A DNA stretch of 64,000 nucleotides from Collinsella sp. BA40 (GTDB lineage: Bacteria; Actinomycetota; Coriobacteriia; Coriobacteriales; Coriobacteriaceae): NCBI RefSeq assembly GCF_008014645.1, contig NZ_VOWY01000007.1, positions 62,001-126,000 on the forward strand. Direction: 5' to 3'. The notes below the pieces were generated by a model. It was given only the letters and a program-made list of their open reading frames with translations, was not told where the DNA came from and did no database searches. A program made the position numbers and the translations under genes. Positions 21,652 through 27,318 of the stretch are shown in pieces (position 1 is the first letter of the stretch; the number at the start of each line of letters is the position of its first letter).

Positions 21652-22281
21652 ATGGAGGTCGGAAACCGGATTCGTCGTGAGCGGCAGCGGCTTGGGATTT
21701 CTCAAGAGGAACTTTCTCACCGAGCATATGTATCGCGCCCGACGCTTTCGCATTGGGAAACGGGCAGGACGCTCCCCGACGCGCAATCCCTGCTGGTTCT
21801 TTCCGAGATATTCGGAACGAGCATTGATGAGCTCGTGAAAGGGGATGTTGCAGAAATGGAAGAGATTGTCGATCGCGAAGCGCGGGTGGCCATAGGTAGG
21901 ACGCTCGCGCTTGCCTGCGTTGCCGTAGGTGCGGGAGTCTGTCTTGTCGCGGTCTCTTTTACCGCGCGCTATCTGGTGGGTTCCGTCGCATTTTACTCGA
22001 TGACGCTTTTGAGCATGGTGATGGGCTTTACGGTGATGACACGGGCGGGCGAGAGGGCCGTATCCGCTGCATCAGCCGCCGGGGTGCTTGCCGAGTTGGC
22101 TGCGGGCAAGTGCGCCGCTGCGGAAAAGGTCGTGCTTCGTGAGCGATTGGCCCACGAGATCGCGCGCGATGGCGTGCGCGACCCATACGCTCGCCTTGTA
22201 TTGAGCGCAGCGTGTGCGGTAGATATCGCATGCATGCTCGTGTGGTTTGCGACACTTATCCGGCCTGGTTTATTTGCGTGA
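21652..22281 (+). CDS. XRE-family regulator with a membrane C-terminus
   Basis: A 209-residue protein: HTH at residues 1-65 (RIRRERQRLGISQEELSHRA, LSHWETGRTLPDAQSLLVLS, SIDELVKGDV) followed by a linker and three hydrophobic helices (about 85-130 and near the C-terminus). The layout resembles paralogues at 24969-25589 and 26516-27136. Such proteins can sense membrane state or bind a partner there while holding DNA. AAGGAGGGGCA fixes the start. Operator not identified. Confidence 0.85.
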   Translation: MEVGNRIRRERQRLGISQEELSHRAYVSRPTLSHWETGRTLPDAQSLLVLSEIFGTSIDELVKGDVAEMEEIVDREARVAIGRTLALACVAVGAGVCLVAVSFTARYLVGSVAFYSMTLLSMVMGFTVMTRAGERAVSAASAAGVLAELAAGKCAAAEKVVLRERLAHEIARDGVRDPYARLVLSAACAVDIACMLVWFATLIRPGLFA

Positions 22282-22806: not shown

Positions 22807-23082
22807 TGCGCCCCCTTGGGATTGCCGGGTTGAGTGCTCGGATCAAGATTCCTCAACGGTAGGTGACATCGATGTGAATTGCAACGCGGCGAGACCCGCT
22901 TTGTTTTGAATTCCGCAAGCTGTAGCGAGCGGTTTGAGGCGTACTTTCTTTGCAGGGCGGGGCTGCGCCGAGCTGTTTTGTCGCAACGCTGGGGCCCGAT
23001 CATTAGAAAACGGCGCCGAGCTCGCGTAGCCCGGCGCCGCCCAGAAACCCGCGGGTGGCGTGCAGGGGCGCCGGAAAGCGGG

Positions 23083-23210
23083 TATACTGGTAACGACTAG
23101 GGAGGCGTACGCCCTCCTGGATTTAGCTGGTGGGGTGAAACCCGCACGAACAGCCGCTCCTGCCAGGGCGGCTGTTCCCTTATGTGGCGAGTCTCACCCC
23201 TCGGCCGTTA
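23083..23210 (+). ncRNA. Candidate structured RNA convergent with the small hydrophobic peptide gene
   Basis: A promoter-like GGTATACTGG (TATACT at 23083-23088) would start an RNA near 23095. The downstream sequence has no ORF but several inverted repeats: GGCGTACGCC (about 23105-23114), AACAGCCGC with GCGGCTGTT, and GGGGTGA with TCACCCC enclosing the latter. The RNA would run into the 3' end of the peptide gene at 23208-23288. It contains CCCTCCT, complementary to that gene's ribosome site AGGAGGG. I infer an antisense antitoxin; the 3' end is not defined. Confidence 0.45.
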
Positions 23211-23288
23211 GAGAACGGCAAGAACAAATAGCGTGATCGATAGAACGAGCACGGCAGCTGCGAGCAGCATTGCGGTGAACTTCGCCAT
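23208..23288 (-). CDS. 26-residue hydrophobic peptide, candidate type I toxin
   Basis: Starts MAKFTAMLLAAAVLVLS and ends TLFVLAVL: one positively charged residue, then a single membrane helix to the C-terminus. The start has the best ribosome site in the neighbourhood (AGGAGGG, 6-7 bases upstream). A CCCTCC in the leader, about 20 bases upstream, could mask that site. The promoter carries a LexA-like box. These properties parallel TisB-type and holin-like type I toxins, which depolarise the membrane. There is no sequence identity I can claim. It could instead be a harmless small membrane peptide. Confidence 0.6.
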   Translation of the reverse strand: MAKFTAMLLAAAVLVLSITLFVLAVL

Positions 23289-23346
23289 GGGAACCCTCCT
23301 AACCCCCTGCAAGGACTCGGAGGGCACCGCCCATGTCGCTATGTCC

Positions 23347-23375
23347 AGTATACCATATAATACGAACATATGTTC
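23347..23375 (-). promoter_or_regulatory. Promoter with LexA-type SOS box before the small peptide
   Basis: On the minus strand TATACT (23347-23352) is a -10 element within GGTATACTGG, the same decamer as in the convergent promoter. GAACATATGTTC (23364-23375) is a perfect dyad fitting the GAAC-N4-GTTC core of Gram-positive LexA operators and overlaps the -35 position. Repression by LexA and induction by DNA damage are inferred. Confidence 0.6.
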
Positions 23376-23501
23376 TAGTTGGTAAGTGGTGGCCTGTCCT
23401 GACGGCATCGGGCGGTGCGATTCCGCATTGCGCTTCTGCTGTACCTTGTCTCCCTGGGGAATTGGGGTGCAATCCTTCTCATTTGACGTCTGGTCAATCT
23501 A

Positions 23502-23700: not shown

Positions 23701-24870
23701 ATGAGCTTCCGCACCAACCTGCAATATCTGCGCGCAGAGCGCCGCATGACCCAGGAGCAACTCGCTATGTTGCTCGGGGTGTCCCGCCAATCCGTCACCA
23801 AATGGGAGGCCGAGAAGTCCTACCCGGAGATGGACAAGCTCATCAAGATGTGCCAGGTCTTCGAGTGCTCGCTGGACGATCTGGTGACCGGGGACGTGTC
23901 CAGTCGCGGGGTTTCTGGCCGGGAGGACCTGGACGGCCGCTCCGTGGCGTGCGCGCCCACACCGATTGTCGACGGCGATATGCCTGCAGCCTCGTTGGTC
24001 GTCGCGGCGCACGACGCTTCCCTCGGCGCGCCCGCGGGGCCTGCGCGCGCACGTTTCTCCGCTGGTGCCTGCGCTATTCCCGCCGGTCCAGCTTCGGATG
24101 TATGTGGTTACGACGAGCATATGGTCACCTTTGCTCGCAAAATCGCGATCGGCGTCGTGCTTTTTATTCTCGGTGCGGCGGCCGCCATCTTCACCGACGA
24201 GGTCATGCATTCGGACGGTATCGTCCTCCTCGCGACGTTCGCGTTCGTTGCCACCGGCCTCGCATTTACCATTCCCGCGGGGATCGACCACGCCGCATTT
24301 GCCAAGGCGCACCCCTACGTCGCCGATTTCTATACGGTGGAGGAGAAGGCGACGGCCCGCCGCCGCGCGTCGATCGCGATCGTGGCCGGCATCGCGATGA
24401 TTCTGCTCGGGGTCGCGTTGGCCGGTTTGTTCGAGGTCGAGTTCAACGTGCAGGTATACGGCGATTCGCTGATGATGGTGCTGGTCGCGCTCGGCGTCGG
24501 GACGATCGTCTACTGGGGCATGCTCTGGGGGCGCACGGACCTTGCGGACTACAACAAGGAGTGGCTCGAGACCGTTGAGCTGAGCGATGACGAGTTGGCG
24601 CAGCTCGACCAACAGAGCCGCGAGGCGTACCTGCGCGTTAGCAACCCCAGGCATCGCGGCGCCGCCGATCGCAAGGAGAAGGCCTGCATGGTGATCATGC
24701 TCGTCGCCACGATGGTGGCGCTGGTATGGCTTTTCGGCACGTCCGCCATAGGCGCGTCCGAGGGTGTCTCCGGTCTGTTCTGGCTTCCCTGGCTCGTTGG
24801 CAGCCTGGCTAGCGGAATCGCTCTGGTCGTCATCGACGATGACGACGTCCAGCCTGGGAGCGATTGCTAG
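23701..24870 (+). CDS. XRE-family regulator with a multi-span membrane C-terminus
   Basis: A 389-residue protein. HTH at residues 1-70 (NLQYLRAERRMTQEQLAMLL, VTKWEAEKSYPEMDKLIKMC, LDDLVTGDV), then a low-complexity linker of about 70 residues, then at least five hydrophobic helices in two groups (about 145-200 and 220-275, then 325-380). The second half looks like a membrane domain of the type seen in DUF1700-like or HAAS-like proteins but is not assigned. GAGAGGACCCATC precedes the ATG. One of four XRE proteins within 6 kb. Confidence 0.82.
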   Translation: MSFRTNLQYLRAERRMTQEQLAMLLGVSRQSVTKWEAEKSYPEMDKLIKMCQVFECSLDDLVTGDVSSRGVSGREDLDGRSVACAPTPIVDGDMPAASLVVAAHDASLGAPAGPARARFSAGACAIPAGPASDVCGYDEHMVTFARKIAIGVVLFILGAAAAIFTDEVMHSDGIVLLATFAFVATGLAFTIPAGIDHAAFAKAHPYVADFYTVEEKATARRRASIAIVAGIAMILLGVALAGLFEVEFNVQVYGDSLMMVLVALGVGTIVYWGMLWGRTDLADYNKEWLETVELSDDELAQLDQQSREAYLRVSNPRHRGAADRKEKACMVIMLVATMVALVWLFGTSAIGASEGVSGLFWLPWLVGSLASGIALVVIDDDDVQPGSDC

Positions 24871-24968: not shown

Positions 24969-25589
24969 CTAATTCAGCAGCCCCCACGCGGTAAAGCCGA
25001 GTGCACCGCCGATGAGCGCCGCGGCGAGGAAGGTCAGTAGGTCATACGCCAGTCGGTGCTTCGTCGGCCATGCGCGGCGGGGGAGTGCCCGCGGATCGCG
25101 CTCGATCTCTGCTTCGCCGTTCATGAACGCGAGGATCTCGCGGTAGGTCACCAGGTCGTTCTCGCGCTTGATGCGCTCCAGGACCGTCGCGACGAGAAGC
25201 GCGCCAACCGCCGGGGCAAACACCATCCCCGCTGCAAGGCCCGTGCCCCAAGCCCTTTCCAGCCAAGTAAAGGCGGGCGACAACAGCAGGGCAAATGCCA
25301 AGACAAGTAGTGCGACCATGAGCAGGGCGAGCCGTACCATGCGCTTTCCCGCGAGCTTGCGGTCCCTCTCGACAGCCTCTTCCATAACGGTCACGTCTCC
25401 CTTCACGAGCGTGTCTATGGAGGTGTCGAACAGGATGCTCAGCATGAGCAGGCTCTGGACGTCCGGATACGTCTTGTCCCGCTCCCAGTTCGAGATGGTC
25501 TGGCGCGATACGTAGAGCTTTTCGGCGAGCTGCTCTTGCGAGAGGCCCATCGCCTCGCGACGCGTCTTGATCTGGTTGCTGATGTCCAT
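24969..25589 (-). CDS. XRE-family regulator with membrane C-terminus
   Basis: A 206-residue protein: HTH (residues 1-65, QIKTRREAMGLSQEQLAEKL, ISNWERDKTYPDVQSLLMLS, SIDTLVKGDV), a short helical linker (EEAVERDRKLAGKRM), two hydrophobic helices (about 88-140), the motif LERIKRENDLVTYREILAFMNGE, and a last helix. The same plan, the same length and shared motifs (DLVTYRE-LAF-GE) occur in 26516-27136, so the two are paralogues. GGGAGGTGACG supports the ATG at 25589. Confidence 0.85.
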   Translation of the reverse strand: MDISNQIKTRREAMGLSQEQLAEKLYVSRQTISNWERDKTYPDVQSLLMLSILFDTSIDTLVKGDVTVMEEAVERDRKLAGKRMVRLALLMVALLVLAFALLLSPAFTWLERAWGTGLAAGMVFAPAVGALLVATVLERIKRENDLVTYREILAFMNGEAEIERDPRALPRRAWPTKHRLAYDLLTFLAAALIGGALGFTAWGLLN

Positions 25590-25836
25590 CGTCACCTCCC
25601 GGTTGTGAAGGAGCGTCCCGCGGTCGCCGCGGCCGCGCCATCAAATCTGCCGTACATCTTACGCGGATGGGGTCATTCCTCGCTGCAAAATCTGTTTTGC
25701 ACGCGCCTGATCTGCATGTTCACCGATCTGGAGCGTCTGACGATACGAGACGGTCGAAGCGGTGCGGAAAACGGGTGCGCTTGGGGCCGAGTGCTTTTGA
25801 GCCGGGCGTTTCGCGCTGCGTGTCCGTCAGAGTGGA

Positions 25837-26515: not shown

Positions 26516-27136
26516 CTAGGCGAGGATCTTGATGAGCATGCCGATTCCGATGCCGATCGCTGCGCCCACGGCGGCGCCGAGGATGATCTTCAGGCTGTTG
26601 AGCACGCCCTTCTTCCATGGTTGCATCTCGCGCGCGTGCTGTCCGGCGAGCGTGCTGCGGTCCACGTGCTCCCCGCGGCTGAACGCCAGCACCTCGCGGT
26701 AGGTGACCAGGTCGTGCTGCTTCTTCAGGTGCTCGAGATTGGCGAACGCGATCAGCATGACGAACAGCGCCGCGAGCGCGAACACCACCGTGGGGATCGC
26801 GTGCCCGCCCCATCCCCATTCGTACTGAAGCGCGCCCCAGATCCCGAGCAGGAGAAACGCGACCGCACTCACCACCGCTACCGTCGAGAGGTTGTTGTAC
26901 TTCTTGACCGCCTCGTTCATTACCTGTGCCATGGTTTCCACATCTCCTTTGATGAGGGAGTCCACGGTCACCCCGAACACGTTGGAAAGCAGCAGCAGGC
27001 TCTGGACGTCCGGATACGTGCGGCCGCACTCCCAGTTGCTGATGGTCTGGCGCGACACGTAGATGCGCTCCGCCAAATCGTCCTGGGAGAGCCCGAGCTC
27101 CGTGCGGTGCTCCTTGATGTGCGAGCCCAGCTCCAT
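26516..27136 (-). CDS. XRE-family regulator with membrane C-terminus, paralogue of 24969-25589
   Basis: A 206-residue protein with HTH (residues 1-65, HIKEHRTELGLSQDDLAERI, ISNWECGRTYPDVQSLLLLS, TVDSLIKGDV), a helical linker (MAQVMNEAVKKYNNLS), two helices (about 85-140), LEHLKKQHDLVTYREVLAF and a final glycine-zipper-like helix (ILGAAVGAAIGIGIGMLIKI). AAGGGAGC upstream of ATG 27136. It is divergent from the efflux gene at 27494, whose control region it could bind. Confidence 0.85.
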   Translation of the reverse strand: MELGSHIKEHRTELGLSQDDLAERIYVSRQTISNWECGRTYPDVQSLLLLSNVFGVTVDSLIKGDVETMAQVMNEAVKKYNNLSTVAVVSAVAFLLLGIWGALQYEWGWGGHAIPTVVFALAALFVMLIAFANLEHLKKQHDLVTYREVLAFSRGEHVDRSTLAGQHAREMQPWKKGVLNSLKIILGAAVGAAIGIGIGMLIKILA

Positions 27137-27318
27137 GCGCGTGCTCCCTTGGGGTTCGGGGTGACCCCTGTCGAGAGTCACCATGGCATTGACGGGCAAA
27201 TCGTACCATCAAAGGTCTTTATGACCTGCCGCTGAGGGGTCGAGCCGGGTTGTCAAAAGGCTTTATAGTTGTGATGTACCTGGGGAAACGATATCTACGG
27301 AGCGTAGGGAGCATCGCG

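Follow-up and report, generated by a model that had tools for sequence, protein, structure and literature searches.

Organization of the locus

The window, that is, the whole stretch of 64,000 nucleotides that was analysed, belonged to a Collinsella genome, with C. intestinalis DSM 13280, C. phocaeensis, and C. tanakaei as its relatives. At the locus, a gene for a small hydrophobic peptide on the minus strand faced a gene for a structured RNA on the plus strand. The features, numbered by position in the window, were as follows:

23005..23038, minus strand: presumed toxin mRNA terminator, a G+C-rich hairpin and then TTTTCT, varied yet kept in close relatives
23047..23083, minus strand: 3' hairpin of the presumed toxin mRNA, ACCCGC...GCGGGT, with the loop CCCCTGCA (23061-23068)
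23083..23088, plus strand: -10 element TATACT of the convergent small-RNA promoter, with no exact LexA box near
23095..23183, plus strand: convergent structured small RNA (presumed antitoxin), three hairpins, about 90 nt
23111-23117, plus strand: GCCCTCC in the small RNA
23148-23177, plus strand: terminal hairpin of the small RNA
23208..23288, minus strand: peptide ORF (presumed toxin), 26 residues, hydrophobic, MAKFTAMLLAAAVLVLSITLFVLAVL; homologous peptide in 43 loci
23289..23340, minus strand: toxin mRNA leader, about 52 nt, with an SD-masking hairpin
23294-23300, minus strand: ribosome site (SD) AGGAGGG of the peptide ORF
23304..23311, minus strand: leader hairpin loop TGCAGGGG, complementary to the 3' hairpin loop
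23319-23325, minus strand: anti-SD word GCCCTCC of the leader
23347..23375, minus strand: presumed toxin promoter, extended -10 TGG-TATACT (-10 at 23347-23352), read from the sequence and recurring in relatives
23364..23375, no strand: LexA (SOS) box, dyad GAACATATGTTC, predicted from sequence comparison

The 26-residue hydrophobic peptide with a strong ribosome site, named in the original prediction, was recovered. Its consensus was MxKLTxLLLAAAVL..., a basic residue mostly lying close to the start, and a single membrane span is presumed. The differences between homologous ORFs at codon positions 1, 2, and 3 were 261, 120, and 359, respectively, with the fewest at position 2. Moreover, dN was lower than dS in all 46 peptide pairs of moderate distance (medians 0.15 vs 0.61), which is a trend and not a formal test because the pairs overlap. 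Judged by this pattern of substitution, the peptide ORF is a gene under purifying selection, and a small hydrophobic ORF under selection is what a type I toxin gene should present. No family in Pfam or NCBIfam matched the peptide, and Rfam found only a tRNA over the window.

The decamer GGTATACTGG was common to both facing promoters, as had been proposed. The overlap of the toxin promoter with the dyad was likewise found, the -35 position, 17 nt upstream of the -10 (23370-23375), lying inside the LexA box. Both the box and the toxin -10 region recurred in relatives of the window locus. The scanner placed a promoter-like site at 23357-23385, but the extended -10, which relatives share, was considered the more likely promoter.

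The convergent RNA had been predicted to be structured and to run into the peptide gene. The first part held: the RNA folded with a z of -3.0 against dinucleotide shuffles, and its terminal hairpin had compensatory changes. The second part did not, since the terminal hairpin ended at about 23177, ahead of the stop codon, and the RNA should therefore not enter the ORF unless read through. The last hairpin was without a clear U-run, so that the 3' end of the small RNA is uncertain. The predicted CCCTCCT, complementary to the SD, was found in the RNA at 23112-23118. For the peptide mRNA, a strong minus-strand hairpin with a T-run at 23005-23038 suggested that it spans the whole small-RNA gene; it probably runs past 23083 to about 23005, and with this presumed extent the entire small-RNA gene would be antisense to the toxin 3' UTR. 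An antisense RNA complementary to the toxin mRNA was conserved with the peptide gene, the complementarity being given by position and the transcripts being predicted ones.

Within 6 kb around the module, four genes (window 21652-22281, 23701-24870, 24969-25595, and 26516-27199) each encoded a protein with the DNA-binding domain HTH_3 at its N terminus and a hydrophobic part at its C terminus.

The LexA box and probable SOS control

The motif GAAC-N4-GTTC was found 83-99 nt before the start in 40 of the 43 homologous loci; it was exact in 24, carried one mismatch in 16 (GTTT or AAAC forms), and was missing in three. Among 2698 background windows of equal width, none had an exact box and 1.5% had one with at most one mismatch. 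Peptide and upstream box, on whose conservation in relatives the original prediction had depended, were both conserved. Around six of the seven Collinsella copies, the half-sites GAAC and GTTC were kept and the centre varied (ATAT, AGAT, ATGT, ATTA, ACAC).

Furthermore, in each of the 16 genomes tested, which represented six genera, three sites of the same motif stood before lexA and one exact site before recA. The lexA sites comprised two exact boxes and one GAAC-N4-GTTT in 13 of these genomes, and all three had one mismatch in the three genomes of family f2. Because the motif precedes both lexA and recA in every genome, GAAC-N4-GTTC was taken as the LexA box, in agreement with the earlier proposal. 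The peptide promoter shares its box with the lexA and recA upstream regions of its own genomes, as a member of the SOS regulon should. The predicted LexA control of the peptide gene, with LexA presumed to bind the box, is strongly supported by this comparison. None of the 43 loci had an exact box in the small-RNA promoter region, and a response to damage is therefore expected from the toxin side alone.

Three loci with an intact peptide were boxless, namely L208 (deletion), L110 (changed upstream region), and L202 (ordinary promoter, TTGACG-TAGAAT). The last of these (G145:C3:140722-142214) had a similar peptide, MDKLIVLLLTAALLVVSIVVFIVIR, an SD-masking leader, and a facing RNA; since it combines the lack of a box with an ordinary promoter, a non-SOS form of the module may exist.

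Two further observations concerned the box elsewhere. Upstream of lexA in these Coriobacteriales (regions L140-L155), three regularly spaced boxes were seen, with starts about 28 nt apart in most, which reads as a dense autoregulatory array. Apart from the module's own box, the genome had a single exact GAACATATGTTC (L001:1501-1914, G000:C3), about 52 nt before an ORF of 116 residues, MENAVKDQVVLYREEVDDE..., a candidate for an uncharacterised SOS gene.

Leader structure and loop complementarity

In the window leader, GCCCUCC pairs with the SD and CAUGGG pairs with CCCAUG at the start codon. Of 40 leaders, 37 had 80% or more of the SD paired in their minimum-energy fold, which agreed with the masking ability that had been ascribed to the CCCTCC leader. 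The window leader folded only mildly better than its shuffles (z = -1.68), and the SD/anti-SD pairs hardly varied across loci and thus give no covariation support. The relatives' leaders carried GGCGGYGCCCTCCGAGTC. The small RNA has the same GCCCUCC, so that leader and antitoxin share one anti-SD word.

In addition, the leader-hairpin loop was complementary to that of the 3' hairpin, which lies immediately past the small-RNA promoter; in the window the two loops read TGCAGGGG and CCCCTGCA, respectively. Both loops changed together across loci, where TGCAGGGG, CGCAGGGA, AACAGGGA, AACGGGG, AGCAAGG, and TGCAGGAA occurred with their complements. For 21 distinct loops, cognate pairs formed 6.5 bp on average vs 5.0 bp for shuffled partners. 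With one member per sequence cluster (21 clusters), the values were 6.5 and 4.8 bp, respectively (p 0.002, the floor of the test). The complementarity was weak or absent at L075, L109, and L087. The covarying loops suggest a 5'-3' lock like that of hok and aapA, but the SD is masked by a different element, and such a lock requires an mRNA reaching the 3' hairpin, an extent that is presumed here.

The complementarity might instead be an inverted repeat at the DNA level or part of the small-RNA promoter, with no RNA lock, for the 3' loop lies directly upstream of the small-RNA -10 and, in the window, about where a -35 would be. The distance from this loop to the -10 ranged from 12 to 16 nt across loci, unlike a -35, and the loop changed in step with the leader loop, which makes the explanation rather doubtful. 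Furthermore, it touches one part of the mechanism and is compatible with a type I module.

Distribution, decay, and nature of the module

A protein search found the peptide in five of 43 Collinsella genomes, in seven copies; C. intestinalis and C. phocaeensis each had two. A search of 396 genomes of the class with a covariance model built on the small RNA revealed many more loci, and a second model, built from 34 diverse small RNAs, matched 31 of 65 Coriobacteriaceae genomes. Loci with an intact peptide numbered 43 in the census and came from Collinsella, from further Coriobacteriaceae, and from another family of the order; such counts are not independent because the homologous loci are related. 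Each locus had a hydrophobic peptide of 25-33 residues and a facing small-RNA gene, and nearly always an SD-masking leader. In the relatives, the peptide started about 100-110 nt before the small-RNA end on the facing strand, and an SD, a leader, and a LexA-like box were present. RNA and leader were the better probes, as the protein search alone finds only the closest loci. Outside the order, the best small-RNA match had an E of only 2.6e-4 and was treated as chance. Most peptide profile matches outside Collinsella (E 0.02-1) were pieces of long frames, and only the family f2 matches adjoining a small RNA were retained. None of the relatives was found on phages, plasmids, or viral contigs, so a role in mobile-element addiction is unsupported here.

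The leader was also sought by pattern, with at most one mismatch and without using the small RNA. All 28 near-exact leaders lay 130-231 nt from a strong small-RNA match. An intact peptide was missing beside 14 of the 47 strong small RNAs, vs no leader without RNA (0/28), with a Fisher p of 0.0007 that serves as a guide only, since the two sets overlap and the loci are related. Toxin remnants were seen beside several solo RNAs (L076, L094, L105, L112, L198). One of the two C. intestinalis copies (L007/L208, G015:C3:153478-154967) had the box, the promoter, and most of the leader deleted, with ORF and RNA intact. An antitoxin that is kept when the toxin is lost or silenced, and not the reverse, is the pattern that toxicity predicts, being expected of such modules and not strictly defining. 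From its co-occurrence with the leader and this asymmetric decay, the role of the facing RNA as a type I antitoxin is supported.

The locus is thus very probably a chromosomal SOS-controlled type I toxin-antitoxin module, one of a Coriobacteriales family, in which toxicity is predicted. Its conservation, the identity of the box, the structures of leader and small RNA, the covariation of the loops, and the asymmetric decay are established by comparison. In the proposed mechanism, LexA on GAACATATGTTC would cover the -35 region and hold the peptide gene off, and DNA damage would release it. The toxin mRNA would be made in a locked form, with the leader hairpin hiding SD and start codon; its loop would pair with the 3' hairpin loop, and this kissing would stabilise the local SD-masking hairpin. 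The small RNA, lacking a LexA box, would pair over its whole length with the 3' UTR, and also with the SD through CCCUCCU, and would in this way neutralise the mRNA. When the SOS-induced mRNA outruns the small RNA, the single-span membrane peptide would be made, presumably depolarising the membrane and slowing growth. The transcripts, LexA binding, unlocking by processing, toxicity, and growth arrest are what we infer for this scheme.

The box, the selection on the ORF, and the antisense layout alone do not prove toxicity, and the peptide might be a useful, non-toxic small membrane protein (e.g. a stress-response helper) under LexA control and tuned by a cis-antisense RNA. This is quite improbable in view of the loss of the toxin while the RNA stays (14/47), the leader not being seen without the RNA, the concealment of a very strong SD in an elaborate lock, and the presence of several modules per genome (e.g. 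G029, G060). A mainly trans-acting regulatory role of the small RNA, with the peptide gene among several targets, is highly improbable. Solo copies whose promoters are intact (L072, L101, L079, L120) persist and might be free-standing regulators, and CCCUCCU could bind many SDs, but in all leader-bearing loci the RNA faces the peptide mRNA at a nearly constant distance, and several solo copies have toxin remnants, as in decayed modules.

The proposed type I module can be compared with several known systems. TisB of the TisB/IstR-1 system in Escherichia coli is, like the window peptide of 26 residues, a hydrophobic peptide under LexA control, with 29 residues. Translation of the full tisB mRNA is restrained, and both this and an antitoxin RNA that does not respond to damage are predicted for Collinsella as well. 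In E. coli, DNA damage does not induce the antitoxin RNA IstR-1, whose gene is divergent from tisB and which pairs with 21 nt in the 5' UTR (PMC4147584). In contrast, the Collinsella genes converge, with the small-RNA gene downstream of the ORF and not divergent, and the RNA lies antisense to the 3' UTR and also has a match to the SD. The two systems belong to different phyla, no sequence relation was detected, and the peptide matched no curated small-toxin family in Pfam or NCBIfam. DinQ/AgrB of E. coli has a LexA-controlled single-span toxic peptide and several transcripts, of which only one is translated (PMC3567139). It resembles the present module in LexA control, small membrane peptide, and RNA antitoxin, and differs in antitoxin placement, in its unrelated sequence, and in phylum. 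The convergent layout, together with the lack of any detected sequence relation, was the reason for not counting the module as a member of TisB/IstR-1 or DinQ/AgrB. The absent family match and the convergent layout fit the original prediction of a system analogous to TisB/IstR-1 and independently built.

In TxpA/RatA, BsrG/SR4, and Fst/RNAII of Firmicutes, the two genes also converge, and the antitoxin RNA overlaps the toxin mRNA in antisense on its 3' side. To our knowledge, none of these has a LexA box, and their peptides are unrelated to the Collinsella peptide and mostly longer. The hok/Sok and aapA/IsoA systems likewise have a cis-antisense RNA; their full-length mRNA is inert through a 5'-3' long-distance interaction, and LexA control is no part of the systems as described (PMC6733600). 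There, the long-range pairing itself sequesters the SD (PMC6733600), whereas in Collinsella a local hairpin hides it and the loop appears to kiss the 3' loop.

According to a 2025 paper, type I modules were earlier found only in Proteobacteria, Firmicutes, and Tenericutes, to which it adds a cyanobacterium (PMC12390103). The SOS-controlled type I examples named in reviews were all from E. coli (including PMC4147584), and the open-licence literature held no report of type I modules for Collinsella, Actinobacteria, or Actinomycetota. Within that literature, this is provisionally the first type I family in the phylum. It is somewhat more likely than not that this is an order-wide and previously undescribed Actinomycetota family of SOS-triggered type I modules, evolved independently of TisB/IstR, with a two-layer RNA lock in which the SD is concealed by a local hairpin whose loop kisses a second hairpin, on the 3' side beyond the antitoxin gene. 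If independent, an SOS-linked family in gut Actinomycetota would suggest that the coupling of damage to a membrane peptide evolved more than once. The module offers a clean test of damage tolerance in Collinsella, and with the covariance model and the box the family can easily be found in further genomes.

Solo small RNAs with an intact promoter and no peptide gene (the four named above and L122) might neutralise modules elsewhere. In two Collinsella genomes, a diverged small-RNA-like element stood in the same setting with no peptide (L083, G021:C33; L086, G001:C1), possibly re-used for another task.
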